A stretch of DNA of 64,000 bases, from NCBI RefSeq assembly GCF_000527695.1, contig NZ_ATSX01000001.1:1240001-1304000 (forward strand), given 5' to 3'. The DNA is from Commensalibacter papalotli (ex Servin-Garciduenas et al. 2014) (GTDB lineage: Bacteria > Pseudomonadota > Alphaproteobacteria > Acetobacterales > Acetobacteraceae). Under the pieces are notes generated by a model. It saw only the letters and a list, made by a program, of their open reading frames with translations. It made no database searches and was not told the DNA's origin. A program made the position numbers and the translations under genes. Shown here one piece after another: positions 18,502 through 59,265 of the stretch; positions within the stretch are counted from its first letter, which is position 1; each line of letters starts with the position of its first letter.

Positions 18502-20682
18502 TTAATCCCATTTTTCATTCAATAAAAAATAATGGTTAACATCAAGAAATGATGCATTTTTTTCGAGTGAATCCGCAATTATTGTTAAGCACGAAATTGC
18601 TGCAATCATTTCCATTCTAACTGCTAAATTTTTCTCGGTCTTTTCTCTTTTACGTAAACGCCGAATAACATTGTGCGCCATAACAACCGTGCGCCCATAA
18701 GAACCATGCATATTAAATCTTGTAATACGTCTTAATACAATTTTCAAAAGTATTTTAATATCATCTGTGACAATATCCTGTGCTATCATGGATCTTAAAC
18801 GTAATATATTTAATCCAATCATCATCACGGCCAGCGCACCAAAATGATAAGCCTGCACAACTTTTGTATTTTGAGTTGTATTGAGTTGTCGCATCATAGT
18901 TACTAACAGCTCGGTTGTTTGAAACAACCAAATACGTGGATTACGTTTTAATGCCGTCGGTAGCGAGCGCAATCGTTTTAATAAAGTTTGGCGCATATGT
19001 AATCTTGTTTTCAAAGGACTATAAGGATAAAAAATTTTAAAAGAAACTATAGAAAAAATAATTCCCATAAATAAGGATAGGGAGTTATTAAAGAATGAAA
19101 TTTCATCCAACCGCACACCATTGTCCAATCCTATCATATAAGGCAAATAAGATGCATAAGAGGCTGATACGCCCAAAGTTTTAGGATAAGCAATACCCAA
19201 ACCCCCAATCATTGTTGGAATAAATAATACTGCGCAAAGCATTTCAATACTCGTAACTGATGGAATAAAATAAAATGTTAAAGTCCATCCAACAAATAAT
19301 GCCCATAATGATCCCTTAAGCCATCCCCATGTTACCGCAGAAGGGTTTTCGAATAAACAAAAGCGCGCGCACCCCATTCCTACCAAAGCAACAGTCGTAC
19401 CACCCTTATCCCATCCAGTAATATACCACATAATACAGGCTGCCAGCATAGCCATCAGCGTACGAATCCCGTTTTTCCAAGCCAAGTCATAATTCAAGGG
19501 TGGATTTACATGAAATTTAAAGTGATCATTTGATATTGGATGTGTACTTTTGTAATATTCATCCAAAGTAACTTGAAGCTCTCCTAAGAGCTCGCTAAGA
19601 GTTCGAAATAAAATACGATCATTAAAAATCGCTTCTTTATATTTTTCATAATCCTCTATAGATCCCGAATATTTCTTTTCATAAAAACTATCAGTAATAT
19701 ATTGTCTGCACTCCCAACGTAATTTATTAAGCCGCCTTTGCTCATGCTTAAAATCTTGTTCTTGTTCAATACGATTAATTAATTTATCTAGTCGATCTTG
19801 AACAAAAGGAATAAATTTTTCAAAATCATGTGTAAGGTTTTTAAAATGAGACATTTGCGTTGCAAGCCCCATTCCTCTGGACAGCACGGCTGTGACAGAA
19901 AATAAAGCCGCATGAGCGTGATCCCCTGTATGGTCATGCCCATTCATTTCAATTTGTCTGAATTCGATCAAGTTGTTAAAATTAACAATAGAAGTAAATA
20001 GCTCTTGAGAAGAAACAATGGCTTTTTCATCCCCTGAAATCATTTTTGAAATAGAATGAAGCGTTCCTTTGATAGCAAAGAGCAAATTATCATTAAGCTC
20101 TTTCCTGGCATTACTATCAAGATTAAAATCAAAGATACGCCCTACAAAACTATCTGCAAATACCCCCAATAAAATATAAGTCCCTCTGGACATAGCCAGC
20201 ATAAATATACCATCTGGATTATTCACAGAACCAAAGGCAATAATAGCACATGTATAGCCTGCCAATACCATGGCATAAGCCTTAAAACTTTGCATACAAG
20301 TGCCAAACCATACACAAATTGCAACAAACAAAGAAACAGTTAAATCAAATAACCATGCTTGTTGAGGAAAAACTGCTACAAAAAAAATCGCAGCTATCAC
20401 ACCAAAAACCGTTCCAACCGCTCGCCAATAAGCTTTAGAAATCGTTTCACCACGCGAGGTATTGCGCGCACAAACCCAAACCGTCATTGGTGCCCATTTA
20501 GGGCTGTCCATTTGCAACCACAATGCTATCGCCAAAGCTAAAAAAGAAGCTATGGTCGTCCGAAGTGCAAAGAGAAAAGCAGAACTTGAAGGTGCATAAA
20601 TCCACTCAAAAGATTTAATAAAATCTTTACGTAAAAGAAGATGCTTTTCCATCCAAGACGTGACAGGTTGAAAACTGGCCAC
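18502..20682 (-). CDS. FUSC-family membrane protein, copy 1
   Basis: A 726-residue protein of the fusaric acid resistance/AaeB type: an N-terminal helix cluster (FALRTTIASFLALAIALWL, then WAPMTVWVCARNTSRGETISKA), a soluble middle of about 230 residues, a second helix cluster (RTLMAMLAACIMWYITGWD ...) and a cytoplasmic C-terminus. Relatives export aromatic acids or related toxic compounds from the inner membrane, usually with a periplasmic adaptor that is absent here. First of four adjacent homologues (reading along the + strand), each separated by about 50-460 bp. It differs more from copies 2 and 3 than they do from each other. Confidence 0.88.
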   Translation of the reverse strand: MASFQPVTSWMEKHLLLRKDFIKSFEWIYAPSSSAFLFALRTTIASFLALAIALWLQMDSPKWAPMTVWVCARNTSRGETISKAYWRAVGTVFGVIAAIFFVAVFPQQAWLFDLTVSLFVAICVWFGTCMQSFKAYAMVLAGYTCAIIAFGSVNNPDGIFMLAMSRGTYILLGVFADSFVGRIFDFNLDSNARKELNDNLLFAIKGTLHSISKMISGDEKAIVSSQELFTSIVNFNNLIEFRQIEMNGHDHTGDHAHAALFSVTAVLSRGMGLATQMSHFKNLTHDFEKFIPFVQDRLDKLINRIEQEQDFKHEQRRLNKLRWECRQYITDSFYEKKYSGSIEDYEKYKEAIFNDRILFRTLSELLGELQVTLDEYYKSTHPISNDHFKFHVNPPLNYDLAWKNGIRTLMAMLAACIMWYITGWDKGGTTVALVGMGCARFCLFENPSAVTWGWLKGSLWALFVGWTLTFYFIPSVTSIEMLCAVLFIPTMIGGLGIAYPKTLGVSASYASYLPYMIGLDNGVRLDEISFFNNSLSLFMGIIFSIVSFKIFYPYSPLKTRLHMRQTLLKRLRSLPTALKRNPRIWLFQTTELLVTMMRQLNTTQNTKVVQAYHFGALAVMMIGLNILRLRSMIAQDIVTDDIKILLKIVLRRITRFNMHGSYGRTVVMAHNVIRRLRKREKTEKNLAVRMEMIAAISCLTIIADSLEKNASFLDVNHYFLLNEKWD

Positions 20683-20790
20683 AAGAAACCTTATGAAATT
20701 AAAAAAAGGAATTTTTTAAAAATAATTATAATAAAACGGCGTTAATTTATTCCTTTTTTTTGCAATCTTCAAACATTAAATCAGTTTATT

Positions 20791-22962
20791 TTAATAAAAT
20801 AACATATTATGAGATTTCACCCTTAAAAATGGAGCATTTTTATCCAGAGCATAAGTCATTAATATTAAGGCAGAAATTGCAACACTAATTTCCATACGCA
20901 CAGCAAGGTTTTTTTCTGTGGTTTCTCTTTGCCTAAACCTTGCAATAGCACGATGTGCAATCATAACTGTGCGCGCATGCTGTCCGTATTTAGCTTTTTG
21001 ACCTTGAAATTTAGCAACCCTTCTTAATACTACTCGTAAAATATTACGAATATCCTCGGTAATAATATCATGCTCAATCATTGCACGCAGACGAATAATA
21101 TTAATCCCAATTAACATCACCGCCATACTACCATGACGATAATTACTGGCCATCCCACTATTTTTACTGATTCCCAATTGATTCATTAAAATTGAAAACG
21201 TTCCAGAAACAAAATTAATCCATTCTCTGGGCAATGGAGATTTCCGAGTATTTGCAAGATTATGCAATCCATGTAAAAGCTTTTGGCGCATCTGACGTTT
21301 TAACTTACGCTGATGATAAGGAAATACAATTTGATAAGCAATTAACGCAACAAGACCACTAAGGAATAACGCCAATGAATCATTAAAAAATGAAATCTCA
21401 TCAACCCTGCCACTATTTGAAAATCCTAGTAAATAGCAAAAAAAGAACATATATCCCCCAGCAATCGGTGCATATTTAGGTGTACACATTGCCAATGCAC
21501 CAATTCCCAAAGGAACTATTAAAACCATACAAAGCACTTCATAAACTGTAATCCAGGGCATAATGATCATATTAAAGAAAAAAGCTGACAGAATAGCAAT
21601 ACAAATCCCTTTAAACCAACCTATGCAAGCAACACTGATATTATCAAAAACACAAAAACGCGAACAACCCATACATAAAAAAGCAAGAAACACGCTCGCA
21701 TTATGCCATCCTGTTATTTCCCAAAGAAGGCAACCTACTGTAATGGTTACAAAAGCCCTAATAGCATTTCGAGCAGCACGTTTATAATCGGGGGGAAATT
21801 TTACTGCGAATTTGAAATTATCTTGTTTTTTTATATCCTGACTTTTGCTTAATTCCAGCAAAGTCGTTTCAAGCTCTGCCAAAATCTCTCGCAGACTTTG
21901 ATATAAAATCCGATCATTTAACGCTCTTTGCGTATATTGATTATCAATAACTTTAATATTCCCTGCACACTTATAAAAACTGTCAGAAACTTTTTGCCGA
22001 CACTCCCACCGCAAAGCATTGATAGAAAGCAGTAAATCTTTGGGGTTATTTCCCTCTTTCAAGCCCATCAAAACACTAGATATAAGACTTTTTGTATGTG
22101 GTAAAATTTGATAAAATTGTAATGTTTTCCCTTTCATTTCCCTTAAATGAATTGAAAAACCCATAGCCTTGACTAATAACGCAGAAATCGAAGAAAGCGT
22201 TGCACGAGCATGATCACCTGTATGCCCAGTCCCTTTTAACTCTATTTCTCTGAATTCCACATTATGGTTTAAAGCAATAATAGAGGTTAAAATTTGATCA
22301 GACTGTGCTACTTCCCAATTTTTTCCTTCTATAATATGGATAATAGATGCCAATGCACCTTCCACGGCGGTTCTTAGATCCTTGTTAAGTTTTTGGTGAG
22401 CATAATGATGTAAATTAACCTCGAATAAACGGGCGATAAGATTTTCAACAAATATCCCTAAAATAAAATAAGAGCCTCTGGACATTGCCATCATAAAAGT
22501 TGTGTTTGGATCATTAACAGAGGCAAATAAAACAATAGCACAACTGAAACCCGCCATCGACCAACCAAAAGACAAAAAATGTCTAGTGCAACTGGCAAAC
22601 CAACAACACAGTGCAACCCATAAAGCAACGATAACTTCAAACAGTAAAGATTGTTGAGGAAAACTGGCCATAATCGCAAACACAGCTATGATACCGACAA
22701 TATTGCCTAAAATAACCCAATAGGCTTTGGATAAAATTTCTCCACGAGAAGAATTCTGCGCGACAACCCATACAGACATAATTGCCCATCTGGGACTATC
22801 CATTTCCATCCATAAAGCAATTGCCAGCGCGATATAAGAAGCCAGGATTGTTCGAAAAGCAAAAATTAGTGCGGTTTTAGAGGGGCAAAATAACCAGCGC
22901 CAATTTTCAAAAGAAAAATAGCTTAAAGAAAGAGTTTTGCCAGATTTCACCCCAAAAAACAC
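20791..22962 (-). CDS. FUSC-family membrane protein, copy 2
   Basis: A 723-residue homologue with the same two helix clusters: FAFRTILASYIALAIALWM and WAIMSVWVVAQNSSRGEILS at the N-terminus, then RNAIRAFVTITVGCLLWEIT in the second half. The C-terminal cytoplasmic helices keep the copy-wide pattern VLRRVAKF ... RTVMIAHRAIARFRQRETTE. It is clearly the sister of copy 3. Probable inner-membrane efflux of aromatic or amphipathic acids; the substrate is unknown. It lies 108 bp from copy 1 and probably shares its direction of transcription with all four. Confidence 0.88.
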   Translation of the reverse strand: MFFGVKSGKTLSLSYFSFENWRWLFCPSKTALIFAFRTILASYIALAIALWMEMDSPRWAIMSVWVVAQNSSRGEILSKAYWVILGNIVGIIAVFAIMASFPQQSLLFEVIVALWVALCCWFASCTRHFLSFGWSMAGFSCAIVLFASVNDPNTTFMMAMSRGSYFILGIFVENLIARLFEVNLHHYAHQKLNKDLRTAVEGALASIIHIIEGKNWEVAQSDQILTSIIALNHNVEFREIELKGTGHTGDHARATLSSISALLVKAMGFSIHLREMKGKTLQFYQILPHTKSLISSVLMGLKEGNNPKDLLLSINALRWECRQKVSDSFYKCAGNIKVIDNQYTQRALNDRILYQSLREILAELETTLLELSKSQDIKKQDNFKFAVKFPPDYKRAARNAIRAFVTITVGCLLWEITGWHNASVFLAFLCMGCSRFCVFDNISVACIGWFKGICIAILSAFFFNMIIMPWITVYEVLCMVLIVPLGIGALAMCTPKYAPIAGGYMFFFCYLLGFSNSGRVDEISFFNDSLALFLSGLVALIAYQIVFPYHQRKLKRQMRQKLLHGLHNLANTRKSPLPREWINFVSGTFSILMNQLGISKNSGMASNYRHGSMAVMLIGINIIRLRAMIEHDIITEDIRNILRVVLRRVAKFQGQKAKYGQHARTVMIAHRAIARFRQRETTEKNLAVRMEISVAISALILMTYALDKNAPFLRVKSHNMLFY

Positions 22963-23424
22963 CTTATCGATTATCGGCCAGAAAAACGTATATTACGAAT
23001 GCAACGAAATAAATCAATTTTTTTCTATAATAAAAAATTCTCATAAGAGAAAAATATGAATGAACGCTACCTGGTTAAATCAGGGATTATTCCTCTTTTT
23101 TTTGAAAAGATTAACGTTCATTCGATAATTTTTTATACATATCACAACCATCTTGTGATTGATTTAAACAAGCTCGTTTAAAATATTTTTATACTTTAAT
23201 TTAGTCTTGAATCATACCTACACAGTGATAATAAACACCTCCAAAACTATACTGGCGTCAGCATTTTCTTGACTATTGTTCTTACCTGACAAGATATTTC
23301 GTCGTTACAAAGATTTTTTGGAATAACTAGGATACATCCCTTCTATTAATCTCAGCAAAATGAACATAATAATATTCAAAATCTTCACTTTAGAGTCATT
23401 TTATAAAACGGCTTAACCATTTTT
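22963..23424. other. Long intergenic region inside the FUSC cluster
   Basis: About 460 bp, far more than the other gaps in the cluster. No coding frame with a ribosome site is visible on either strand. It holds the inverted repeat at 23058-23123. It may contain the promoter for copies 2 and 1 or a small RNA; otherwise nothing can be assigned. Confidence 0.5.
23058..23123. repeat. Inverted repeat flanking a T-rich segment
   Basis: GAATGAACG (23058-23066) and CGTTCATTC (23115-23123) are perfect 9-bp arms around 48 bp that include a T-rich run and CTGGTTAAATCAGG, itself a small hairpin. It could be a folded small RNA or a decayed mobile element end. Confidence 0.4.
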
Positions 23425-25569
23425 TTATTTTTTTACTCTTAAAAAAGAAGCATTTTTATCTAAAGCATAAGAGATCAGTATCAACGATGAAATCGCCGCA
23501 CTCACTTCAATCCTTACAGCCAAATTTTTTTCTGAGAATTCACGTTGCCTAAAACGTGCAATCGCACGATGAGCAACCATCACTGTTCTAGCGTGAGGTG
23601 CATACCCCGCTTTACGCCCATCAAACATCGAAATACGCCTTAAAACTACCCTAAGGATATCTTTAATATCTTCGGTCATAATATCATGGTCAACCATATG
23701 ACGAAGACGAATAATATTAATCCCAATCAACATCACAGCCATATTTCCATGACGATAACTTTTAACCAAACTTGTGTTACGATCCTCGTTTAATTGGCGC
23801 ATTAACACAACAAATGCCTCTGAAACAAAGCCCACCCATTCTCTGGCCAAAGGCAAAGATGAGGACGAAGACTGTGCCAAATGATGCAGACCTTGTAATA
23901 ATTTCATCCTCATTTGTCGCCTTAATCGTCGAGAACGATAAGGAAAAAATAGTCGATAAGAGGCCAATGCAAAAACACCACTCATAAATACAGCCAAGGC
24001 ATTATTTAAAAATGATATTTCATCAACACGTCCCTCATTGGCAAAACCCAACATATAACAAAAGAAAAAAGCATATGTCGAAGCAATAGAAGCAAGCCTG
24101 GGCACACACATCGCCAAAGCTCCTATGCCCAAAGGAACAATCATTAATATAAACAACAAATTAAGATTACTGACGGCGGGCATAATAAGGAAGTTATAAA
24201 AACCTCCAACGATAATTGCGATACATGCGCCTTTAAACCACCCCCAACAAGCCAAAGTCGCATTTTCAAATAAACAAAAACGCGCACATCCCATACATAA
24301 AAAAGCTAAGAATAACGGTCCACGATCCCATCCCGTAATTTCCCATGCCAGACACCCTAAAGTAATGGCAAAAAAGGCACGAATTGCATTTCTCCACGCT
24401 CTTCTGAAATCAAAACTGGGTTTAATATCAAACTTAAATTTATCATATAAATTAAAGTCTCGACTTTTACTTAATTCACGCAAAGTAACGTCTAACTCAG
24501 CTAATATCTCTCGTAAGCTTTGATATAAGATACGATCATTCAAACTTTTTCGAGTATAATCCTCATTCGTTGCTTGGGGGCTGCCTAAATTTTTATAAAA
24601 ACTATCCGCAATTCTTTGACGACATTCCCAACGTAACGCATTCAAAGCTATCAATGTTTCGGATAAAGGAGACCCCTTATTCAGTTGATCTAATAATTGT
24701 AATAAGTAACTTTTGGTTAGTGGCACAATATAGTGAAAATTAAGCACGTCTTTTTGAATTTGCTTGAGATGAATGGAAAAACCTGTGGCCTTTACCAATA
24801 ATCCAGAAACTGAGGCCAACACAGCACGGGCATGAGCCCCTGTATGCCCAGTGCCTTTCATTTCTCGTTCTCTAAATTCAATATTATTATTTAATCCTAT
24901 AATCGAAGATAACAATTGATCTGACTGCGCCACAGCCCAATCGTCCCCATCAAGCATCTTAGAAACAGATTTAATGCCCTCTTCAACCGCTTTTTGCAAA
25001 TCATCATTGAGTTTTTTATGAGCTTGGTGGTGCAAGTTAAGGTCGAATAAGCGGGCTGTAAAATTTTCTGCTAGAACCCCCAGCATAAAATAACTGCCTC
25101 GTGACATTGCCATCATAAAAGTTTCATTAGGATTTCCAACAGAAGAGAACAAAACAATAGCACAACTATAGCCCGCCATAACCATACCCAAAGCACGAAA
25201 GTTACGCGTACAACTGCTCACCCAGCAACATAACGCAACCCACAAAGCAACCGTAACTTCGAATAATATAGGCTGTTGAGGAAAGCTTGCCATAATCCAT
25301 AATGAAACGATAATACCTGTAATATTACCAACAATAATCCAGTATGCTTTGGATAATACTTCACCACGAGAAGAATTCTGTGCCACAATCCACACAGCCA
25401 TAATCGCCCAACGTGGGCTGTCCATCTCCATCCACAGTGCTATAACAAGAACAACATAAGAGGCGATTAGCGTACGAAAAGCAAAAATAATTGCTGTTTT
25501 TTGTGGTGCATATAACCACTGAAACGATTTTAACGTAGTTTGACCAAAGGCCATGTGTTTTGCCCACAT
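23425..25569 (-). CDS. FUSC-family membrane protein, copy 3
   Basis: A 714-residue homologue very close to copy 2: shared stretches include MDSPRWAIMAVWIVAQNSSR near the N-terminus, VALWVALCCW, FMMAMSRGSYFMLG and MKGTGHTGAHARA in the soluble middle. The second helix cluster begins RNAIRAFFAITLGCLAWEIT. Same predicted inner-membrane efflux role. The start may be the ATG at 25569 or the one at 25554; neither has a strong ribosome site. It is preceded by 95 bp after copy 4. Confidence 0.88.
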   Translation of the reverse strand: MWAKHMAFGQTTLKSFQWLYAPQKTAIIFAFRTLIASYVVLVIALWMEMDSPRWAIMAVWIVAQNSSRGEVLSKAYWIIVGNITGIIVSLWIMASFPQQPILFEVTVALWVALCCWVSSCTRNFRALGMVMAGYSCAIVLFSSVGNPNETFMMAMSRGSYFMLGVLAENFTARLFDLNLHHQAHKKLNDDLQKAVEEGIKSVSKMLDGDDWAVAQSDQLLSSIIGLNNNIEFREREMKGTGHTGAHARAVLASVSGLLVKATGFSIHLKQIQKDVLNFHYIVPLTKSYLLQLLDQLNKGSPLSETLIALNALRWECRQRIADSFYKNLGSPQATNEDYTRKSLNDRILYQSLREILAELDVTLRELSKSRDFNLYDKFKFDIKPSFDFRRAWRNAIRAFFAITLGCLAWEITGWDRGPLFLAFLCMGCARFCLFENATLACWGWFKGACIAIIVGGFYNFLIMPAVSNLNLLFILMIVPLGIGALAMCVPRLASIASTYAFFFCYMLGFANEGRVDEISFLNNALAVFMSGVFALASYRLFFPYRSRRLRRQMRMKLLQGLHHLAQSSSSSLPLAREWVGFVSEAFVVLMRQLNEDRNTSLVKSYRHGNMAVMLIGINIIRLRHMVDHDIMTEDIKDILRVVLRRISMFDGRKAGYAPHARTVMVAHRAIARFRQREFSEKNLAVRIEVSAAISSLILISYALDKNASFLRVKK

Positions 25570-25663
25570 TTATTACGATAAAGATACTTATCTAGTAATT
25601 ATTGCTATAAATATCTCAAGCATTTTATTCATTAAAATAATCATTTAAACAAAAAAATATTTA

Positions 25664-27811
25664 TTAATCTAATTTATATAAACGATAAGAAGGATTTAAA
25701 AAAGACGCATTTTTTTCTAAGGCGTAATAAATTAATATTAAACAAGCAATTGCCGCACTTATCTCCAAACGCACTGCAATATTTTGCTCTTTCTTTTCAC
25801 GCGCACGCAGCCTTCTAATTGCACTTTTTGCAATCAATACCGTTCGTCCATACCGCCCCCCTTTAAAATGAGAAATACGACGCATCACTACACGCAGCTG
25901 ATTTTTAATATCTTCAGGTAAAATATCATGATCAATCATCGCGCGTATTTCGATAATATTTATTCCAATACACATAACAGCCAAAGCACCATGATTATAC
26001 TTTTTAATTAATGCTGTTTCTGTTGCAGAATCGAATTGACGCATTAATGAAATAAACCAATCCATTGTCGAGGTCAACCATCTGCGTGGACGTGGTATCG
26101 GCGTTACTAGGGGTAAAGTTTGAACATTACGTAGCATACGTTTGCGAATTTCTTTTCTAACCTTTTGAGGAGAATAAGGCGCAATAAACCGAAACGCAAA
26201 AGCTGCTAATCCAACACCAAAAAAAACAGCCAAAGCGCTATTGAGGAAAAACATCTCATCCATACGTTGTTGATTACCGAGAATAATCATAAAAGGGAAA
26301 AAGACAGTAAAACTCATTCCTATTCCTCGCGTTGGCAAATTATAAATTGCTAAACCACCACAAAATAAAGGAATAAAAGTCGCTAAATAAACCATCTCTA
26401 TGGAATTCGCCAAAGGCATTATAGTTACATTCAAAATAGCTGTAACAGTAACTGTTATAAGGGTTCCTATGAAAAAACCTTGGCACATTTTATAACCATT
26501 TTCAAACAAGCATAAACGACCACAAGCAACAGCTAACAACCCAATTGCCGCTGGAAATTCATTCCATGCAGTAATTTCCCATAAAAAACATGCACCTAAT
26601 ATTGAAATAACTGCACGAAAAGCATTTCCCCAAGCCAATTTGAAATTATAAATAGGAGGTAAATTAAATCTGAAATTATCTTTCTTTTTTGGAGTTTTAA
26701 CATGATGATATTCAGTTAAAATGACTTCAATTTCTCCTAGAAGCTCGCTTAAAGAACGATATAAAATTCTTTGGTCTAGTAAGGTTTGATCTTCAAAACC
26801 CAACGTGTTCTTTGCTGTATTCGTATCCTTATAAATACATTCTACAATAATTTGACGACATTCCCAACGAAGTTTACTCAACGCATCTAAATGTTTATTA
26901 AAGTCAATATTCTTTTCCAAAGCATGTATAAGATTCTCTAAATAAACATGAATCTTAACGCAGATATCACGAAATGTTTCCTCCTTTTGAAAATGACGCA
27001 TATACACTGCTAAGTTAATTAAACGTGTTAAAACAACGCTGATGGAAAAGAGTGTCGCATGTACGTGATCAGTTGTATGATCATCGTTTAGCATCTCAAT
27101 TTTTCTGAATTCAATAGAATTTTGAAATGCTGAAATAGCTGCAAATACATTTTGAACCTCAAATGCCGCTTGATAGTCCCCTTTAATAACGTTTCTAATG
27201 ACTGTTAATGATCCAGTAATCGCTTTTAATAAGTTATTATGCAATGATATACGGGCATTATGATTCATATTGAACGCAAATAAACGCTCAACAAATGTCT
27301 GACATAATACACCCAAGATAATATAACTACCCCTGGCCATCGCCATCATAAACACTTCATTAGGGTTTGTAGAAGAAGACAAGGCAATTAAAGCACACGT
27401 ATATCCCGCTAAAACGAAACTATATGCACTGGAACCTCGAATTAAGCTTCCCCAAAAACAACATCCCCCAACCCATAAGGCAATGCATATATCAAAAATT
27501 AAAGGTTGTTGAGGAAAGGCCGCAACGATTGCCACAGCAACCACCACACCGACCAGTGTACCCATCACACGCCATTTAGATTTTGAAATTGTCTCTCCAG
27601 GAGAGGTCTGGGCAACAACCCATACCGTCATCATTGCCCATTTTGGGCTATCAAGCTGCATCCATAAAGCAATAGCCAATGCCAAATAAGACGCAAACAT
27701 AGTCCGAAGTGCAAAATAGATAGCTTCTTTTCGAGGGGCATATAACCATTGATAGGATTGAATTTTACCAAACGGAAAAAAACTAATGTTTCTTAACCAA
27801 CTTAAATTCAC
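25664..27811 (-). CDS. FUSC-family membrane protein, copy 4
   Basis: A 715-residue homologue with the same layout (FALRTMFASYLALAIALWM, WAMMTVWVVAQTSPGETISK; second cluster from AFRAVISILGACFLWEITAW). It keeps the shared middle motif (FRKIEMLNDDHTTDHVHATL) and the C-terminal basic helix motif (RYGRTVLIAKSAIRRLRARE). Closer to copy 1 in the SPGETISK/YGRTV region but divergent overall. Transcribed first if the four form one leftward unit; lnt lies 57 bp upstream on the same strand. Confidence 0.88.
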   Translation of the reverse strand: MNLSWLRNISFFPFGKIQSYQWLYAPRKEAIYFALRTMFASYLALAIALWMQLDSPKWAMMTVWVVAQTSPGETISKSKWRVMGTLVGVVVAVAIVAAFPQQPLIFDICIALWVGGCCFWGSLIRGSSAYSFVLAGYTCALIALSSSTNPNEVFMMAMARGSYIILGVLCQTFVERLFAFNMNHNARISLHNNLLKAITGSLTVIRNVIKGDYQAAFEVQNVFAAISAFQNSIEFRKIEMLNDDHTTDHVHATLFSISVVLTRLINLAVYMRHFQKEETFRDICVKIHVYLENLIHALEKNIDFNKHLDALSKLRWECRQIIVECIYKDTNTAKNTLGFEDQTLLDQRILYRSLSELLGEIEVILTEYHHVKTPKKKDNFRFNLPPIYNFKLAWGNAFRAVISILGACFLWEITAWNEFPAAIGLLAVACGRLCLFENGYKMCQGFFIGTLITVTVTAILNVTIMPLANSIEMVYLATFIPLFCGGLAIYNLPTRGIGMSFTVFFPFMIILGNQQRMDEMFFLNSALAVFFGVGLAAFAFRFIAPYSPQKVRKEIRKRMLRNVQTLPLVTPIPRPRRWLTSTMDWFISLMRQFDSATETALIKKYNHGALAVMCIGINIIEIRAMIDHDILPEDIKNQLRVVMRRISHFKGGRYGRTVLIAKSAIRRLRAREKKEQNIAVRLEISAAIACLILIYYALEKNASFLNPSYRLYKLD

Positions 27812-53043: not shown

Positions 53044-54195
53044 TCAATCTGGAATATAAGTAAAATTTCTTTGGCTCTCAACATTCGCATATGTTCCCGG
53101 TGAAGTCTCAGGAAATCCTACAGGAAGTATTGCTTGAACAATACAATCTCCATCCTCGACATGAATAGGTAAATTTTTATTTCCAGAAGCACTACCAACA
53201 ACACTATTACGACCACTCCCAACAAGGGTAAAGTCAGAAATAATCGTAGATGCTGGCCATAACACTGGTGATGGATTAGGTGCAGCGCCTAATCCAGCAG
53301 GACCTTGAGTTTGGAATTTTTGATCTGTTCTCTGTCCGACAGTATCTTTTTTGAAACCAGCGTAACAACTGTTATGTTTTAAAACAGCTGTTACATACCT
53401 TACAGACCATCTTTCTTTAGAAGTAAGGGCACCAACTGATACGGAAGCATTCCCACCAACGGCGGTAATTATTCCTGGTCTAACCACTCCATTACCTCGT
53501 CCTGGGCCGCTAACAACAGGATAAACAACGTTTGCATTATATCTTGTTTTTGTATAAGTATCAAGATCAATAGTAAATTCACCATCCAGTGCAGGACGAA
53601 TTGGCAGAAGTGAATATTGAAGTTGTAAGTCTGCTTTCATAGTATAGGGTTTATTTTGAAAGTCAGTACCATCAAAATTAACCGTAACATATCCGCCTCT
53701 TTCAGTATCCAGCACAGTGTCATACTGGTTAGTGTAATCAAAATTATATACTTGTTTACCTGCTTCAGTTTGTTTAACAATACCACTAGCAAGTCCAAAA
53801 TGATTACCACTGCCATATGCACTATCTAAACTATAAATTATACCCCCGTCAGAAGGGCATTTTCCTTGGTTGGGGCATTTACTTATATCCTTAATAAAAT
53901 CTACACCAAACAAAGTTTCTGAATATGTGATCTCTTTACCATCAGCATTGAGATTTGCTTGTGTCTCTGTTGAAAATTGCCCTTTAACACCCTTTAATAC
54001 TGGAGTTCCAGGCAAATCGTCAGGAAACTTAAAAAGATAAACATTTTTAGCTGTAAAATCTTTTGTTGATTTCGTTAGTGCTGCCTTGATGTCTAATGTG
54101 CGATAATGATCTGGAAAATCAATCGCCTTTGAAGCTTTAGAGCCTAAAAAAATAGAAAAAGCGCATAGTGCGCTTGTATATAGTAATTTATTCAT
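53044..54195 (-). CDS. Secreted protein of unknown family, copy A
   Basis: A 383-residue protein with a signal peptide (LLYTSALCAFSIFLGSKASKA). It is a clear paralogue of the next gene (54291): both have FPNDLPG-type and GVKGQFST motifs near the N-terminus, FDGTDF...PYTMK..LQL in the middle, and WP..TIISDFT...LPIHVE.GDC near the end. It has several Cys pairs (CPNQGKC; C in NSCYAGFKK and EDGDC). No catalytic motif and no family recognised. Being at the distal end of the phage late block, it may be a moron (cargo) gene. A hairpin (54217-54230) and RBS AAGGA precede the start. Confidence 0.7.
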   Translation of the reverse strand: MNKLLYTSALCAFSIFLGSKASKAIDFPDHYRTLDIKAALTKSTKDFTAKNVYLFKFPDDLPGTPVLKGVKGQFSTETQANLNADGKEITYSETLFGVDFIKDISKCPNQGKCPSDGGIIYSLDSAYGSGNHFGLASGIVKQTEAGKQVYNFDYTNQYDTVLDTERGGYVTVNFDGTDFQNKPYTMKADLQLQYSLLPIRPALDGEFTIDLDTYTKTRYNANVVYPVVSGPGRGNGVVRPGIITAVGGNASVSVGALTSKERWSVRYVTAVLKHNSCYAGFKKDTVGQRTDQKFQTQGPAGLGAAPNPSPVLWPASTIISDFTLVGSGRNSVVGSASGNKNLPIHVEDGDCIVQAILPVGFPETSPGTYANVESQRNFTYIPD

Positions 54196-54290: not shown

Positions 54291-55409
54291 TTAGTCTGGA
54301 ACAGTCCTTATATAAACCTGACTTTCCATATTCATGTTACTTCCTGATCCTGTTGTTCGATCTCCATAAGGAAGCGCTGCTTGCACAACACAATCCCCAT
54401 TTTCAACATGAATAGGTAACTTTTGATTTCCATTGGCTTGTGCCATTATACTATCTCTATCTTTACCTGCCGAAGTAAAGTCTGAAATAATGGTTACATC
54501 AGGCCAAAATACAGAGGATGGATTAGGATCATTACCTGTCCCTGTTTTATCATTCCAAAAAAACTTTGTAGGGCCATGTTTCTTAAATGCAATTTGACAG
54601 CTATTTTTTTTATAAACTGCAGTTATATAGCGGACAAACCAATTCCCTTTATTGTGAATAGAAACAGCAGAAGTCGCAACATTTCCATTTACAGCATAAA
54701 TAGTTCCTGGTCGTAACACACCATAACCTTTACCTGAGCCACTCTTTACAGGTAAAACGATATATGCATTTAAAGCAGGATTTTTTAGATTATAAGCACC
54801 AATAATAAACTCTCCGTCTAGGCCGTTTGTTATTGGTTCAAATGTATATTTAAGTTGTAAATCCACTTTCATCGTATACGGATAACCTGTGAAATCCGTA
54901 CCGTCAAAAACAACTATTCCACAACCTTTATCTCCAGTATTAATATGAATACCTATATCCTTAGGCAGCATATAATCTACATCAGATAGTTGTGTGCTAT
55001 TTCCTTTTGTCTGTTTAATAATATTTTGCACTAAAGAATATCGGGTATATTTATTAGCTAAATCTTGATAACTTGATACTGCCTCTCCAACTTTGGGACA
55101 GTTATTTGAAGAATAATCAACAGCGAACAGTGTTTCTGAAGAAGTTATATCTTTACCATCCTTATCAAACTTAGCCTGAGTGGTTGTCGAAAACTGACCC
55201 TTGACCCCCTTAAAAACAGGCTCTCCTGGCAAATCATTAGGGAAATTAAAAGGGAAAAGATGCTTGACTTGAAAGCTTTTCGTCTGTTTTGTTAACTCAG
55301 CCTTTACATGCAACGTTCTATAATGTTCTTTAGGATTTTCTGCATTAACAGATGTTATCGAAAACAACATTCCAAAAAAAAGACTATATATATATAACGA
55401 TTTTACCAT
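54291..55409 (-). CDS. Secreted protein of unknown family, copy B
   Basis: A 372-residue protein with signal peptide (SLYIYSLFFGMLFSITSVNA) and the full set of motifs shared with copy A at 53044: HYRTLHVKAELTKQTKSF near the mature start, FNFPNDLPGEPVFKGVKG, VVFDGTDFTGYPYTMKVDLQ, and LPIHVENGDCVVQAALP near the C-terminus. The regions between motifs differ strongly, so the duplication is old or under diversifying pressure. Role unknown; probably exported to the periplasm or outer surface. Confidence 0.7.
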   Translation of the reverse strand: MVKSLYIYSLFFGMLFSITSVNAENPKEHYRTLHVKAELTKQTKSFQVKHLFPFNFPNDLPGEPVFKGVKGQFSTTTQAKFDKDGKDITSSETLFAVDYSSNNCPKVGEAVSSYQDLANKYTRYSLVQNIIKQTKGNSTQLSDVDYMLPKDIGIHINTGDKGCGIVVFDGTDFTGYPYTMKVDLQLKYTFEPITNGLDGEFIIGAYNLKNPALNAYIVLPVKSGSGKGYGVLRPGTIYAVNGNVATSAVSIHNKGNWFVRYITAVYKKNSCQIAFKKHGPTKFFWNDKTGTGNDPNPSSVFWPDVTIISDFTSAGKDRDSIMAQANGNQKLPIHVENGDCVVQAALPYGDRTTGSGSNMNMESQVYIRTVPD

Positions 55410-55488: not shown

Positions 55489-56007
55489 CTAGACATCAAT
55501 TGCTTGCTGAAAGCGATCGACATTATCCTGCCAAACGGCTTTCCCTAGTGCTGTATTATAATATTTTTTATGATATTGCGCCATTGCAATGGCATCATTC
55601 CCAAAAGGTAATGCTGTTGGAACCCTAAGATAAAAAACTCTACACATAGCAGCTGCAAAAAAAATGTTACCTGTCATTGTGGTTGGTTTAGGAATACCGT
55701 TTGCGTCCGTATTCCATTCACCCGCGATATTTTTGAGTAATGCTGCAAGATGGCTACGTTTAGGGCCAGCCAAAAAATTCTTCCAAATATCATTATAGGT
55801 TGCAGGTTCCATTTGCATCGCACCCACCGCAGGTCCTTTGCCAAGCTGTTTTAAATAAGTTGATCCACCAGCATATCCTTCTGCAAGGAATGTACCTGTA
55901 ACTTGGTTAATCGCTCTGACGCCACCCAAACCTAAATAATCCAAGGCTGGTTGAATAATTTCATTTTTTAAATGAGGAATATAAATCCCTCCTGTGACTT
56001 TTGCCAT
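55489..56007 (-). CDS. Phage muramidase/transglycosylase-like protein
   Basis: A 172-residue protein. VTGTFLAEGYAGG places a candidate catalytic Glu at residue 43, and KGPAVGAMQMEPATYNDIW resembles the GxxQMEPaT stretch of phage-encoded cell-wall lytic proteins (GLMQ-type lysozyme core). No signal peptide. It would degrade peptidoglycan for DNA entry or cell lysis. It lies after the neck protein gene in the late block and is preceded by a terminator-like hairpin (56033-56059). Confidence 0.65.
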   Translation of the reverse strand: MAKVTGGIYIPHLKNEIIQPALDYLGLGGVRAINQVTGTFLAEGYAGGSTYLKQLGKGPAVGAMQMEPATYNDIWKNFLAGPKRSHLAALLKNIAGEWNTDANGIPKPTTMTGNIFFAAAMCRVFYLRVPTALPFGNDAIAMAQYHKKYYNTALGKAVWQDNVDRFQQAIDV

Positions 56008-56149: not shown

Positions 56150-56729
56150 TTAATCCACTATATCAACATCCATCACAACCTCTTTTGCACTTGCTGCACA
56201 AACACCAAGTTCTGGATGATATTCAAAATATGCATTAACCGAATATGCATCATCCACTTGATCTTCTGAGTTAATAATTTGACCTGCAGAGTTTACGTCA
56301 TCACTATACAATGGAAAAAGAATATCGCTATATTGTTCAAACTGTTCGCTTGCCCAAGCATCATTAAAACGCATATCAAAAGCATGCGCCATTTCCAAGG
56401 CGGGGATTTTATCTGTACCCACAAATAAGATATGAACCGAAACCTGGGATCTGCACCATATGATTTTATATTTATCTGTATAACGTGTTTCACTGGAAGA
56501 TAAGCGTTTTTTATCAGTAATTTTCAAAACTATGTAAGGGAATTTAGGCGTTGATGTGCGGTTTTGGGAGTCATTAATAATTGATAGTTTTGCCCCTTTG
56601 ACAGGAATAGCTTTGCGCATAAACTTGGCAATTAAATTATATATCTCTTGGTGACTTAGAATTTTTAATTTTGGAAAACCTTTATCCTTAGGAGCTTTCG
56701 CTGTGACTTGACTTGACTTTTTTTACCAT
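56150..56729 (-). pseudogene. gp12-like phage neck protein, frame broken near its start
   Basis: From ATG 56620 a 156-residue frame reads like phage neck gp12 proteins (FPYIVLKITDKKRLSSSETR ... LEMAHAFDMRFNDAW). No ribosome site precedes that ATG. Upstream, the same frame is open to 56722 (SQVTAKAPKDKGFPKLKILS, then HQEIYNLIAKF) but has no start codon; the only ATG (56729) is one frame off. The shift falls at an A7 run (56718-56724) followed by three AAGTC units: loss of one A or gain of one AAGTC would give a continuous protein. So it is either disrupted, variable, or read by slippage. Confidence 0.6.
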
Positions 56730-57012
56730 TTTAATACTCGCTTTGATGTTAATGGGTAAATTTATCCCTTAAACGCAATTAGGGCGTTATATTCACAAAA
56801 TGATTTTCTTTTAAAGGGGATATTGGGAAGTTACCCAAAATATTTAAAAATTTTAGGTAAAATAACGAAATGTTAATATAAAAATATTAACTTACTGTTA
56901 ATTATCTTAGCTTTTATGAATAATTATCAATATATTTTTTATAAAAACAATAATTTAGATAAAAAAAATACAACGAACATTATTTTTCTTTAAATAGAAA
57001 TATAGACTGTAA
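56730..57012. other. AT-rich gap between neck gene and secreted partner gene
   Basis: Very AT-rich, with no frame that has a ribosome site. It contains a hairpin (TTACCcAAAAT at 56831-56841 with ATTTTaGGTAA at 56850-56860). It probably holds a terminator for the gene ending at 57013 and the promoter for the neck gene, but no clear elements can be named. Confidence 0.4.
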
Positions 57013-57711
57013 CTACTTTTCCTCTAGCTCTTTTTGCCTTTCTCTTGCTCGCAAATAAGGAGCATTTTTACGTACATATTCCTTCCATTCTTGTTGTTCT
57101 TTTTTACTATTAAACATCCCTATACCTATATTCGTAGCACAATCAGGATAATCTGCTGTTATACCCATAACAAAAATCCCCCGTCCATTTGTAGTATGAA
57201 GTGCAATCGGCGCATTAGCAACAGGATGAAAAGACAGCAACTCAGGAATTATAAAACCAAATTCCTTTTTTAATAATTTAGTATTAACACATTGTTTTTG
57301 ATCTAAATCAAAACCAAAACCTACAACTTTCCAGCCAGCCTTTAATCTTATTTTAACCCCTACATCTTTTACGATTACACCATCTAATGTTCTATATGAT
57401 CCTAATATATAAGATACAGAATTTTCACTTTGTTCCACAATACGCAATTGATTATTGAATATTTTTTGAATATTTTTTAATTTTACAGGTAAAAGTTTAG
57501 GTGTTACTCTGAGTAAATCAATAAAATTATAAGGTAAAATAGGATATTGTTTTAAAAATTTTTCTGACAAAGCGTTTTTAAACAAAGGTATTACTTTAGT
57601 ATCTACTCTGGCATAAGAAGGCAAAGAAAGTGCCAAACTCAATACATAGAAAAAACAAATATTTCTATATTTTCCGGAATGCTTCAATAGCATCTCTACA
57701 ACTATTCCCAT
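57013..57711 (-). CDS. Secreted protein, possible immunity partner of the metallopeptidase
   Basis: A 232-residue protein starting at ATG 57711, with AAGGA 5-6 nt upstream. An N-terminal signal sequence (ICFFYVLSLALSLPSYA) suggests periplasmic location. The mature part has no recognised family; it contains C's in KQCVNTK and DYPDCATN and a basic/acidic helical tail (EWKEYVRKNAPYLRARERQK). It overlaps the end of the metallopeptidase gene by 47 bp, a coupling typical of toxin/immunity pairs. The immunity role is inferred only from this arrangement. Confidence 0.6.
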   Translation of the reverse strand: MGIVVEMLLKHSGKYRNICFFYVLSLALSLPSYARVDTKVIPLFKNALSEKFLKQYPILPYNFIDLLRVTPKLLPVKLKNIQKIFNNQLRIVEQSENSVSYILGSYRTLDGVIVKDVGVKIRLKAGWKVVGFGFDLDQKQCVNTKLLKKEFGFIIPELLSFHPVANAPIALHTTNGRGIFVMGITADYPDCATNIGIGMFNSKKEQQEWKEYVRKNAPYLRARERQKELEEK

Positions 57712-58381
57712 AATAATCCTTATATTTTTGTGGTGGATTGGTGTTGCTGGTATATTTTTCTGAATATAAATCAGCAATTTTTCTTTTTGCTGTTTTCATA
57801 TCATTTGTTCTTAATCCATCACGATAATATTGAATCATATCTATTCTTAGCGAATCAGGCTCTCTTGCTTCCGCAAAAATATCAATACAAGCTGTCTGTA
57901 AAATCTCTGCCCTAACAATAATCTGATTAACAATTGCATCAGCCTCTCCACCTTTACCTATCATATAGTTATCTATACAATTTTCAACAGAAGAAAAATT
58001 ATATCCCTTAAAAAAAAGAGCATGCCCCACTTCATGAGCAACAGACGACGTTGCCTGGGCGATAGTTGTAGCTTTATCTGATCTAAATTCAGAAGCTATG
58101 ATAATTTTAGCCTCTAATCTCTGATCTTTATTCGGGCGTTGCGTTGTTGTACCTTTACCTGCTGCCCCCCATACAAATTGCCAATTATCATGTTTTAATT
58201 GTGTTACTTGCCTTATTAATGTTGGTGATTGTGAAACATAACGGTCAACATCACTTCCTAATCCTGTTGTAACGATAATTTTCAACTCACTTCTTCGGCG
58301 CGCCATTTCTTGAATGGCATCGTCTGAATCAGGATTGAACAATGGAGCATGACATTTTTTAGACATGTTTGGGCTGATCAA
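57665..58381 (-). CDS. HEXXH metallopeptidase-like protein, possible effector
   Basis: A 238-residue protein with no signal peptide. HEVGH at 116-120 gives two zinc ligands and the catalytic Glu; a likely third ligand is Glu in GKGGEADA (about 146), 26 residues later. This resembles zincin-type peptidases. The start is TTG 58381, chosen because GAGGAG lies 9 nt upstream; ATG 58366 is too far from any site. Cargo or late phage gene; target unknown. It precedes an overlapping gene for a secreted protein. Confidence 0.7.
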   Translation of the reverse strand: MISPNMSKKCHAPLFNPDSDDAIQEMARRRSELKIIVTTGLGSDVDRYVSQSPTLIRQVTQLKHDNWQFVWGAAGKGTTTQRPNKDQRLEAKIIIASEFRSDKATTIAQATSSVAHEVGHALFFKGYNFSSVENCIDNYMIGKGGEADAIVNQIIVRAEILQTACIDIFAEAREPDSLRIDMIQYYRDGLRTNDMKTAKRKIADLYSEKYTSNTNPPQKYKDYYGNSCRDAIEAFRKI

Positions 58382-58420
58382 AATATCAATCTCCTCTATT
58401 AAATATATTTACTAAAATAA

Positions 58421-58579
58421 TTATTTCCCTTTCCAAATTTTTATCACCGCACAAATTGCACGAATAACAAAAGACAAAGGAATACTTATAGCAACAACAG
58501 GAATAACCCAGGGATCGTGAATTTTAATCCACTCAGCATTATTTTCCCACCACCAGCGCAGGACCTCAAAGAGATTCAT
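58421..58579 (-). CDS. Small membrane protein, 52 aa
   Basis: ATG 58579 to TAA 58421. Trp-rich start (MNLFEVLRWWWENNAEWIK), one helix (VIPVVAISIPLSFVIRAICA) and a basic end. Its start overlaps the end of the preceding 137-residue membrane protein by 14 bp, so they are translationally coupled. Size and location fit a spanin- or holin-accessory role; no family recognised. Confidence 0.55.
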   Translation of the reverse strand: MNLFEVLRWWWENNAEWIKIHDPWVIPVVAISIPLSFVIRAICAVIKIWKGK

Positions 58580-58979
58580 AGTTTTTCTCTAGCCCCCGCA
58601 AAATTCTGGAAAGCGCATAGAGATTTATTGCCGAGAATACACCCCATGCAAGCAAGCTAAAGTGCCATTGCCCATAAACTGCAATATTTAATGTTCCCCA
58701 AATTAAGAAAGAAGAAGCAAAAAATGCAGCCAAACCTCTGCCGAGTAAACTTTCACAATTCAATGCACAACATTGAAATAACCCAACGATAATAAAAAGG
58801 GATTCCCACAAATAAATTGGTATAACTTTGACAAATCCGTCAATAAAGGATTGTTGAATTACAAAATGATCTGGTGAACAAAACCCGTAAATTCCGACAG
58901 AAATTAACAGCATTGAACTCCACCATTCAGCAAACCAATGATCTCTTTTACGCAATCGTTTAACTAGACTTCCCCCCAC
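58566..58979 (-). CDS. Four-helix membrane protein, possible lysis or exclusion gene
   Basis: A 137-residue protein with about four hydrophobic helices (WSSMLLISVGIYGF, YLWESLFIIVGLFQC, GLAAFFASSFLIWGTL, LLAWGVFSAINLYAL) after a basic N-terminus. No family recognised. It overlaps the holin-like gene by 20 bp and the 52-aa gene by 14 bp, forming a tight membrane-protein trio typical of phage lysis cassettes. Confidence 0.6.
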   Translation of the reverse strand: MGGSLVKRLRKRDHWFAEWWSSMLLISVGIYGFCSPDHFVIQQSFIDGFVKVIPIYLWESLFIIVGLFQCCALNCESLLGRGLAAFFASSFLIWGTLNIAVYGQWHFSLLAWGVFSAINLYALSRILRGLEKNYESL

Positions 58980-59208
58980 TACCTTTCTCCTTCACTTCAT
59001 CTGGCTTTTTAAAAGAGGCCAATACATGAAGAAACTGCCATAATTTATGACTTTTGCGATCCTGTTCTGGCTCTTTCCAAAACCTCATAATCAATGTACA
59101 AACTGTTACTATTACAGTCACCGCAGACACAATATTTCCTGTAATATCTCCAGGAATTATCCCCATAACATATTGAAACAGTTGCATTAATAAATCTGTA
59201 TTTTCCAT
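58960..59208 (-). CDS. Holin-like small membrane protein
   Basis: An 82-residue protein from ATG 59208 (GGGA about 8 nt upstream; an ATG at 59232 lies within the terminator hairpin of the tail-fibre gene). One hydrophobic helix (GNIVSAVTVIVTVCTLIMRF) and a strongly charged C-terminus (KKPDEVKEKGSGG) fit phage holins. It starts the lysis-like trio after the tail fibre gene. Confidence 0.55.
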   Translation of the reverse strand: MENTDLLMQLFQYVMGIIPGDITGNIVSAVTVIVTVCTLIMRFWKEPEQDRKSHKLWQFLHVLASFKKPDEVKEKGSGGKSS

Positions 59209-59221
59209 GTTTTTTTCCCAT

Positions 59222-59265
59222 AAAAAAGGCATAAAAAAAGACGCTGTTGCGCCCCACTTTATGCC
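59222..59265 (-). terminator. Terminator after the tail fibre gene
   Basis: GGCATAAA and TTTATGCC arms (59228-59235, 59258-59265) with a longer inner loop; on the - strand a run of six T follows. It ends the tail fibre transcript 30 bp after its stop. Confidence 0.7.

Follow-up and report, generated by a model that had tools for sequence, protein, structure and literature searches.

A worked analogue of the mechanism that we propose for the locus described here is VgrG2b/PA0261 of Pseudomonas aeruginosa (Tpe/Tpi family), in which a C-terminal metallopeptidase domain is matched by a dedicated immunity protein, the sequence families being different (PMC6899460). In the parts of that paper considered here, export to the periplasm makes the toxin harmful to E. 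coli, whereas toxin in the cytoplasm does no harm; PA0261 binds the toxin and depends on its signal peptide to confer immunity. The evolved VgrG2 of Enterobacter bugandensis E104107, an 861-aa VgrG with a C-terminal gluzincin domain, is held distinct from VgrG2b by its authors in the sections on which we draw (PMC10763514). MuF polymorphic toxins of temperate phages have their immunity genes downstream and are, in the extracts used, predicted to travel in the phage head (PMC5576092, PMC3482391, PMC11699363); Bxa of Bacteroides stercoris is a MuF toxin with two immunity proteins, and a metallopeptidase domain is given for 20% of 191 putative MuF toxins (PMC5576092, PMC11699363). The X-Tfe/X-Tfi pairs of the Xanthomonadales T4SS include, in the excerpt at hand, a putative HExxH metallopeptidase, X-Tfe XAC0096 (PMC6759196). 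Titles, abstracts and passages of the open-licence literature that were searched held no description of the pair reported here, and the portions of PMC8867033, PMC9846239, PMC12366320 and PMC10259446 consulted held nothing that alters our reading.

The pair lies in a stretch of 64,000 nucleotides of Commensalibacter papalotli (the window; G000:C3:1240001-1304000, in a genome of 2.33 Mb), whose genes have a G+C content of 0.30-0.41; the portion of PMC10149009 used here gives 2.35 Mbp and 36.7% for the species and several prophages per genome for Commensalibacter. An initial annotation had proposed a candidate effector/immunity pair within a phage late block, and the features on which that proposal bears are the following.

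57665..58381, minus strand: candidate toxin (effector) gene, 238 aa; intact ORF with TTG start and GAGGAG upstream
58022..58036, minus strand: HEVGH zinc-binding/catalytic motif (residues 116-120); H, E and H invariant in 14 aligned rows
57944..57946, minus strand: Glu146 of GGEADA, probable third zinc ligand; invariant in 14 rows
58268..58381, minus strand: short N-terminal toxin segment; weak likeness among three intact phage toxins (C..P..F, EM.RRR)
57013..57711, minus strand: candidate immunity gene, 232 aa; intact ORF with ATG start at 57711 and AAGGA upstream
57610..57711, minus strand: signal peptide-like leader of the immunity protein, about residues 1-34, by hydropathy
57289..57291, minus strand: Cys141 of the immunity protein, first of a conserved pair; nearly invariant column
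57139..57141, minus strand: Cys191, second of the pair; nearly invariant column

The toxin gene has a possible alternative start (ATG 58366), and by eye no leader is discernible at the N-terminus of its product, as the initial annotation had stated. Family profile searches with the protein returned no PAAR, VgrG, MuF or XVIPCD match, and no carrier domain is present. One HExxH is seen against 0.35 expected by chance in the 55 non-overlapping ORFs (19,476 aa) of the window, so that the motif by itself proves nothing. Conservation bears out the zinc site that had been read from the single sequence: the 14 aligned rows, from which the Nocardia relative L012 (no HExxH) and the weakest matches were left out, have 10 invariant columns, among them H116, E117, H120, E146, D167, Y220 and Y224, and HExxH with a conserved downstream Glu, the mark of a zincin or gluzincin, is found in all 14. 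The protein is accordingly annotated here as a predicted zinc metallopeptidase, gluzincin-like in its site; a zincin fold, enzymatic activity, toxicity and binding of toxin by immunity protein are likewise predictions from sequence. Solved structures gave weak core matches only, the best hits of the toxin profile (A12) to the PDB being the zinc proteases 1c7k and 4hx3 (E 0.0031), reached over the HExxH core alone. The VgrG2b structure 6H56 is missing from the A12 matches at E up to 10, and the PDB copy searched may not contain it.

Neither protein is claimed by a curated family, as had been noted from the letters, and nothing better than E 0.025 was found for either in Pfam, NCBIfam, PHROGs or PADLOC. 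For the toxin the best weak matches are phrog_2767 (E 0.025), archaemetzincin (E 0.059) and Peptidase_M32 (E 0.11), and for the immunity protein a lipase model (E 0.15); with only these weak matches (E 0.025-0.15), a housekeeping family is ruled out, and the unrelated housekeeping match that was to count against the pair did not appear. Searches at E up to 1 gave no match to DUF4157, the VgrG2b family, and none to MuF in the window toxin, and PADLOC identified no defence system. Among the 14 family members, DUF6782 (PF20573), a putative metallopeptidase family whose name was not found in the open-licence literature searched, weakly matches seven (best E 2.3e-6; the whole proteins with a printed score, L024 at 20.5 and L023 at 23.4 bits, both lie below the gathering cut-off of 27 bits), M78 weakly matches five (best E 0.023) and SprT-like matches one (3.8e-4), the window protein being matched by none of the three. 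The suggestion of a new family needs correction, since the pair does not stand alone as a family and is placed here as a phage lineage within a broader family of polymorphic toxins.

The immunity gene overlaps the toxin gene by 47 nt (57665-57711), as had been claimed, and its frame stays open further upstream as far as TTG 57777. Its product was proposed to be secreted, with which the hydrophobic stretch ICFFYVLSLAL (mean hydropathy 2.5) followed by PSYA/R agrees, the leader being called by a hydropathy scan and no trained predictor. The two cysteines are nearly invariant in the immunity alignment and may form a Cys141-Cys191 disulfide. The immunity proteins of the window and of the genus relative G040 are homologous (E 9.2e-13), and in one profile comparison the profile of these two matched that of eight others with E 8.2e-10 and probability 96.5. 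Against phage records the immunity protein gave seven Vibrio phage matches (E 0.02-0.09, 45% of the query covered), which we take as chance, and against plasmids none. Promoter and terminator scans gave counts at chance level, so that expression of the immunity gene in uninduced lysogens is unsupported.

Relatives of the toxin, counted at E up to 0.001 (the window's genome counts whenever the sample contained it), were found in 3 of 200 family genomes with the single sequence, in 4 of 398 phylum genomes with a nine-row profile, in 10 of 198 genomes (family of G292) and 6 of 299 order genomes with a 14-row profile, and in four of the nine genus genomes with a two-row phage toxin profile. Among plasmids, 13 records matched at E up to 0.1 (seven with E 0.07), and a contig scan with only two peptide patterns gave six loci; 50,697 phage records searched with three family members gave none at E up to 0.1. 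Three pattern-based IMG/VR scans also found nothing, which is weak evidence of absence, pattern-based scans being incomplete: the A8 scan lacked, among the matches listed, a relative that two other scans had found.

What these relatives are joined to makes the toxin role more than the guess that it had been. By Pfam, PAAR is present on L004, L023 and L024, VgrG parts on L020 and L021, and XVIPCD, the X-T4SS signal, on L017 (E 6.7e-26), so that the relatives are C-terminal toxin domains of PAAR, VgrG and X-Tfe proteins, among others. By eye, with no family search, L083 is CDI-like and L088 VirB6/TrbL-like; L010, L011 and L085 appear, also by eye, to be free toxins with a leader, and L004 adjoins a ClpV-like ORF. 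Giant LWXIA-type proteins contain the toxin domain as well, with no separate immunity seen. In L088 (G620), L061 and L062 the toxin relatives end ORFs of about 590-620 aa, that of L088 having the VirB6/TrbL-like start, and each of the three is followed by an overlapping partner ORF that has a leader; a fusion of a T4SS channel to a toxin, as in L088, would be unusual.

Set beside the described systems, as far as the cited portions of the sources go, the window pair shares with VgrG2b/PA0261 an HExxH + Glu zinc site and a small immunity protein encoded just downstream, and the window family shares with it partly conserved immunity cysteines and carriers that are VgrG, PAAR or stand-alone cargo; a periplasm-acting toxin with a periplasmic immunity protein is what that work describes for VgrG2b/PA0261 and what we propose for the window pair. 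The window pair differs in being prophage-borne in a host without VipB, and a sequence relation is not detectable. The E. bugandensis VgrG2 has the layout of the 854-aa Phytobacter relative L021 and, on that likeness of layout alone, may well be of the same family; in the passages used, which mention no immunity protein for it, it lies in a T6SS cluster and is not phage-borne, unlike the window toxin. MuF toxins resemble the pair as prophage-borne polymorphic toxins with immunity downstream, whereas the window toxin is stand-alone, lies in a tail/lysis region and has a partner with a leader. The X-Tfe/X-Tfi likeness is that of relative L017, which has XVIPCD and an adjacent lipoprotein-like ORF; the window protein, in contrast, has no XVIPCD, and its partner lies downstream rather than upstream.

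Pairing across loci was assessed with a script that accepts a neighbouring ORF of 110-330 aa if it has either a hydrophobic leader or a spaced Cys pair, applied to 22 catalogued toxin loci. A candidate immunity ORF adjoins the toxin in 21 of these, and at L011, the remaining locus, the filter missed an overlapping ORF that is present in the annotation; co-occurrence of the two genes, as the initial annotation had anticipated, is thereby upheld, and homologues mostly lacking the second protein, which would have told against it, were not what was found. A hydrophobic leader is present in 19 of the 21 script-found partners, the window's included, and a Cys pair by pattern in 15. In the candidate immunities of L004 (G040) and L023 (Bosea) a leader is not visible, nor is one found upstream of the start, and a periplasmic site is therefore not universal in the family. 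At the X-Tfe loci the lipoprotein-like partner lies upstream and was counted by adjacency rather than by homology to the window immunity. Some loci are not independent of each other: L022 is almost identical with L021, and L086 is close to L017. As a control, 105 other ORFs of the same loci (at least 250 codons, any frame) were passed through the filters: in a 19-locus comparison that leaves out L059, L061 and L062, the loose filter accepted 18 of 19 toxin loci and 34 of 105 controls, whereas the strict filter (leader and Cys pair, downstream) accepted 11 of 19 and 2 of 105, and since so many controls pass the loose form, the strict form counts more. Left out of the 22 were the duplicates L003 (of L024), L056-L058, L060, L063-L066, L069-L074 and L076-L079, and the near-duplicate L009 (of L019); L008, L013 and L014, in which the domain lies inside giant LWXIA-type proteins, only L008 being so annotated; L012 (Nocardia, no HExxH); the weak matches L018 (E 4.8e-5; a lipoprotein-like ORF adjoins), L089 and L090 (lipoprotein-like ORFs upstream), L091 (no clear partner), L067 and L068; further plasmid matches; and L075/L081, with a split toxin and an intact immunity gene downstream.

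The prophage continues into the adjoining chromosome, which was read to 1,349,999, and corresponds to IMG/VR UViG_2775507278_000002. Six of ten scanned proteins matched PHROGs and four did not; the matches are tail sheath (E 6.6e-70), virion structural protein (6e-23), baseplate wedge (2.6e-49), terminase (1.5e-96), major head protein (1.8e-63) and a replication initiation family (2.3e-12). Sheath and baseplate indicate a contractile tail, and with a neck terminator adjoining the pair the phage late block that had been recognised is confirmed. None of the genome's four tyrosine integrase matches falls in the prophage region, so the phage may be defective; the element at G000:C3:1292000-1337000, with terminase, capsid, contractile tail and a replication initiation-like gene, may instead use another integrase or be domesticated. 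Three further groups of genes were noted in passing. At the prophage edge, 53044-54195 and 54291-55409 (minus strand of the window) encode proteins of 383 and 372 aa that look alike, both having leaders and no Pfam or NCBIfam match at E up to 1. Beyond the window, inside the tail gene block and on the opposite strand, a tandem of three closely similar ORFs (156-163 aa, with leaders) lies at G000:C3:1314225-1315680 (plus strand, L030). At 18502-27811 (minus strand of the window), four consecutive large membrane proteins of 714-726 aa look by eye like paralogues of one transporter family.

The pair occupies a slot (56621-58420 in the window) between a 52-aa membrane protein and the neck terminator, with the following neighbours.

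58421..58579, minus strand: 52-aa one-helix membrane protein, upstream slot edge; listed in 7 of 10 slot regions read
58566..58979, minus strand: 137-aa membrane protein, holin-like by position only; relatives in 8 of 150 family genomes, own included
58960..59232, minus strand: 90-aa membrane protein, holin-like by position only
56150..56620, minus strand: phage neck/tail terminator gene, downstream slot edge; PF23961, E=2.4e-11
55489..56007, minus strand: phrog_3108 protein, lysin-like by eye; E=3.1e-25, 138 phage records

Three of the nine genus genomes hold the pair in this one slot without a carrier domain: the window's, G819 (L037/L082) and G816 (L080). In G819 the toxin is followed by two tandem immunity genes, and in G816 by a decayed second one; the second copies lie at L037:7275-8641 (intact, first conserved Cys missing) and L080:3778-4313. 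A second phage-type copy in G816, L081:7648-8900, lies near a tail sheath-like gene and has a toxin split in frame, the one such case among four phage-type toxin copies, with its immunity gene intact. Seven further slot regions (L093-L099), chosen by a relative of the 137-aa membrane protein and labelled by eye, show a variable cargo slot downstream of small membrane proteins across regions of the genus. The slot is empty between the 52-aa protein and the lysin-like gene in L094; elsewhere it holds a 691-aa ORF (L093), a transposase and other genes (L095), a large fibre-like ORF with remnants (L096), an AAA ATPase and a DNA methyltransferase (L097), a HAD-like protein (L098) or several small ORFs (L099). 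The 52-aa protein is listed for the window, L037/L082, L080, L093, L094, L096 and L098, and unlisted for L095, L097 and L099. Because the same slot is empty or otherwise filled elsewhere, the pair is optional cargo.

A tree of 19 rows groups the three intact phage toxins in a single clade (support 100/100) on a stem of 1.28 changes per column. The position of this clade among the other toxins has low support (44/72), and the toxins of G040, G839 and G867 are long branches. Between the window and L037, our own Nei-Gojobori script gives dN/dS of 0.46 (toxin) and 0.36 (first immunity gene) against 0.12, 0.09 and 0.11 for three phage neighbours, rough values given that synonymous sites are near saturation; the pair thus looks constrained while evolving faster than these neighbours. 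Among the ORFs of 13 loci, the first 40 residues of the window toxin match only those of L080 (E 1e-4, 16 residues) and L082 (E 0.15), and the split copy L081 differs in this segment. As a part common to other prophage proteins the segment was rejected, one match (E 0.93) being found besides the toxins.

VipB (PF05943) is absent from the three genomes that carry the pair in the slot (G000, the window's own, G816 and G819) and present in two of the nine genus genomes, G040 and G785. With no PAAR match in the window's genome either, the host is, by the VipB and PAAR searches, without sign of the commonest injection machine, and on these two markers a role as T6SS cargo of this host is rejected. 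The VipB-bearing G040 carries a homologous toxin.

Taken together, the carriers of the relatives (T6SS and X-T4SS), the zinc site and the leader-bearing partner point to a metallopeptidase that acts, and is blocked, in the periplasm. We consider it likely that the pair is a periplasm-acting effector with its immunity protein, of a polymorphic-toxin family and carried as cargo by a contractile-tail prophage. The toxin would be made in the cytoplasm and be harmless there; in the periplasm it would act as a zinc metallopeptidase, and the immunity protein, exported to that compartment, would block it by binding. By way of the phage, whether together with the particle or at lysis, the toxin might enter the periplasm of other cells, while the immunity protein would protect the lysogen and the phage-producing cell; this phage-linked step we propose tentatively, short of an even chance. 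That the stand-alone metallopeptidase is cargo of the phage particle itself, comparable to T6SS cargo effectors, with its own periplasmic immunity and with the N-terminal segment as a loading signal, is a doubtful but conceivable extension.

Other roles were weighed against this reading. The pair lies directly downstream of three small membrane proteins, a position often taken by an endolysin gene, and the metallopeptidase could leave through holin-like pores and attack the producer's envelope late in the lytic cycle, with the secreted partner delaying it. We regard this as unlikely: slots that carry the pair (window, L037, L080) and slots that lack it (L093, L094, L099) both contain the lysin-like phrog_3108 gene, so that the phage seems able to do without the pair; one related slot, in L094, is empty, and optional cargo argues against an essential lysis role; the toxin relatives are fused to interbacterial delivery parts; and a secreted inhibitor is not known as a usual component of lysis cassettes. 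Alternatively, the phage may have acquired a T6SS effector-immunity pair that is now inactive, except perhaps for immunity against T6SS-armed relatives such as G040, with its homologous toxin. Such decay would agree with the missing T6SS marker and carrier domain, the split toxin beside an intact immunity gene in L081 and the decayed second immunity gene in L080, yet it is improbable given an intact toxin with a complete zinc site in three genomes, a toxin dN/dS below one half between two of them, and a long-stemmed phage-only clade that is no recent copy of the G040 gene. Finally, some contents of related slots look defence-like by eye (the AAA ATPase and methyltransferase of L097), which would suit a pair directed at the cell envelope against incoming phages rather than against rival bacteria; the missing PADLOC match, the fusion of relatives to antibacterial-type delivery parts and the late-block position of the pair leave this very improbable.

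Effector-immunity pairs are usually studied together with a dedicated secretion machine. Here a family that is elsewhere fused to T6SS and X-T4SS carriers appears as a separate, long-branch phage lineage in genomes without a T6SS marker and in a cargo slot between membrane proteins and tail genes, which raises the possibility that contractile phages deliver or release a periplasmic toxin against non-lysogens. Should the particle-cargo reading of the effector-immunity pair prove true, it would constitute a polymorphic toxin system that phages deliver by a route other than the MuF capsid. If the phage does deliver or release the toxin, contractile machines would have in phages a further delivery route for toxins of this kind; if it does not, the locus would show weapons passing between secretion systems and phages as cargo.
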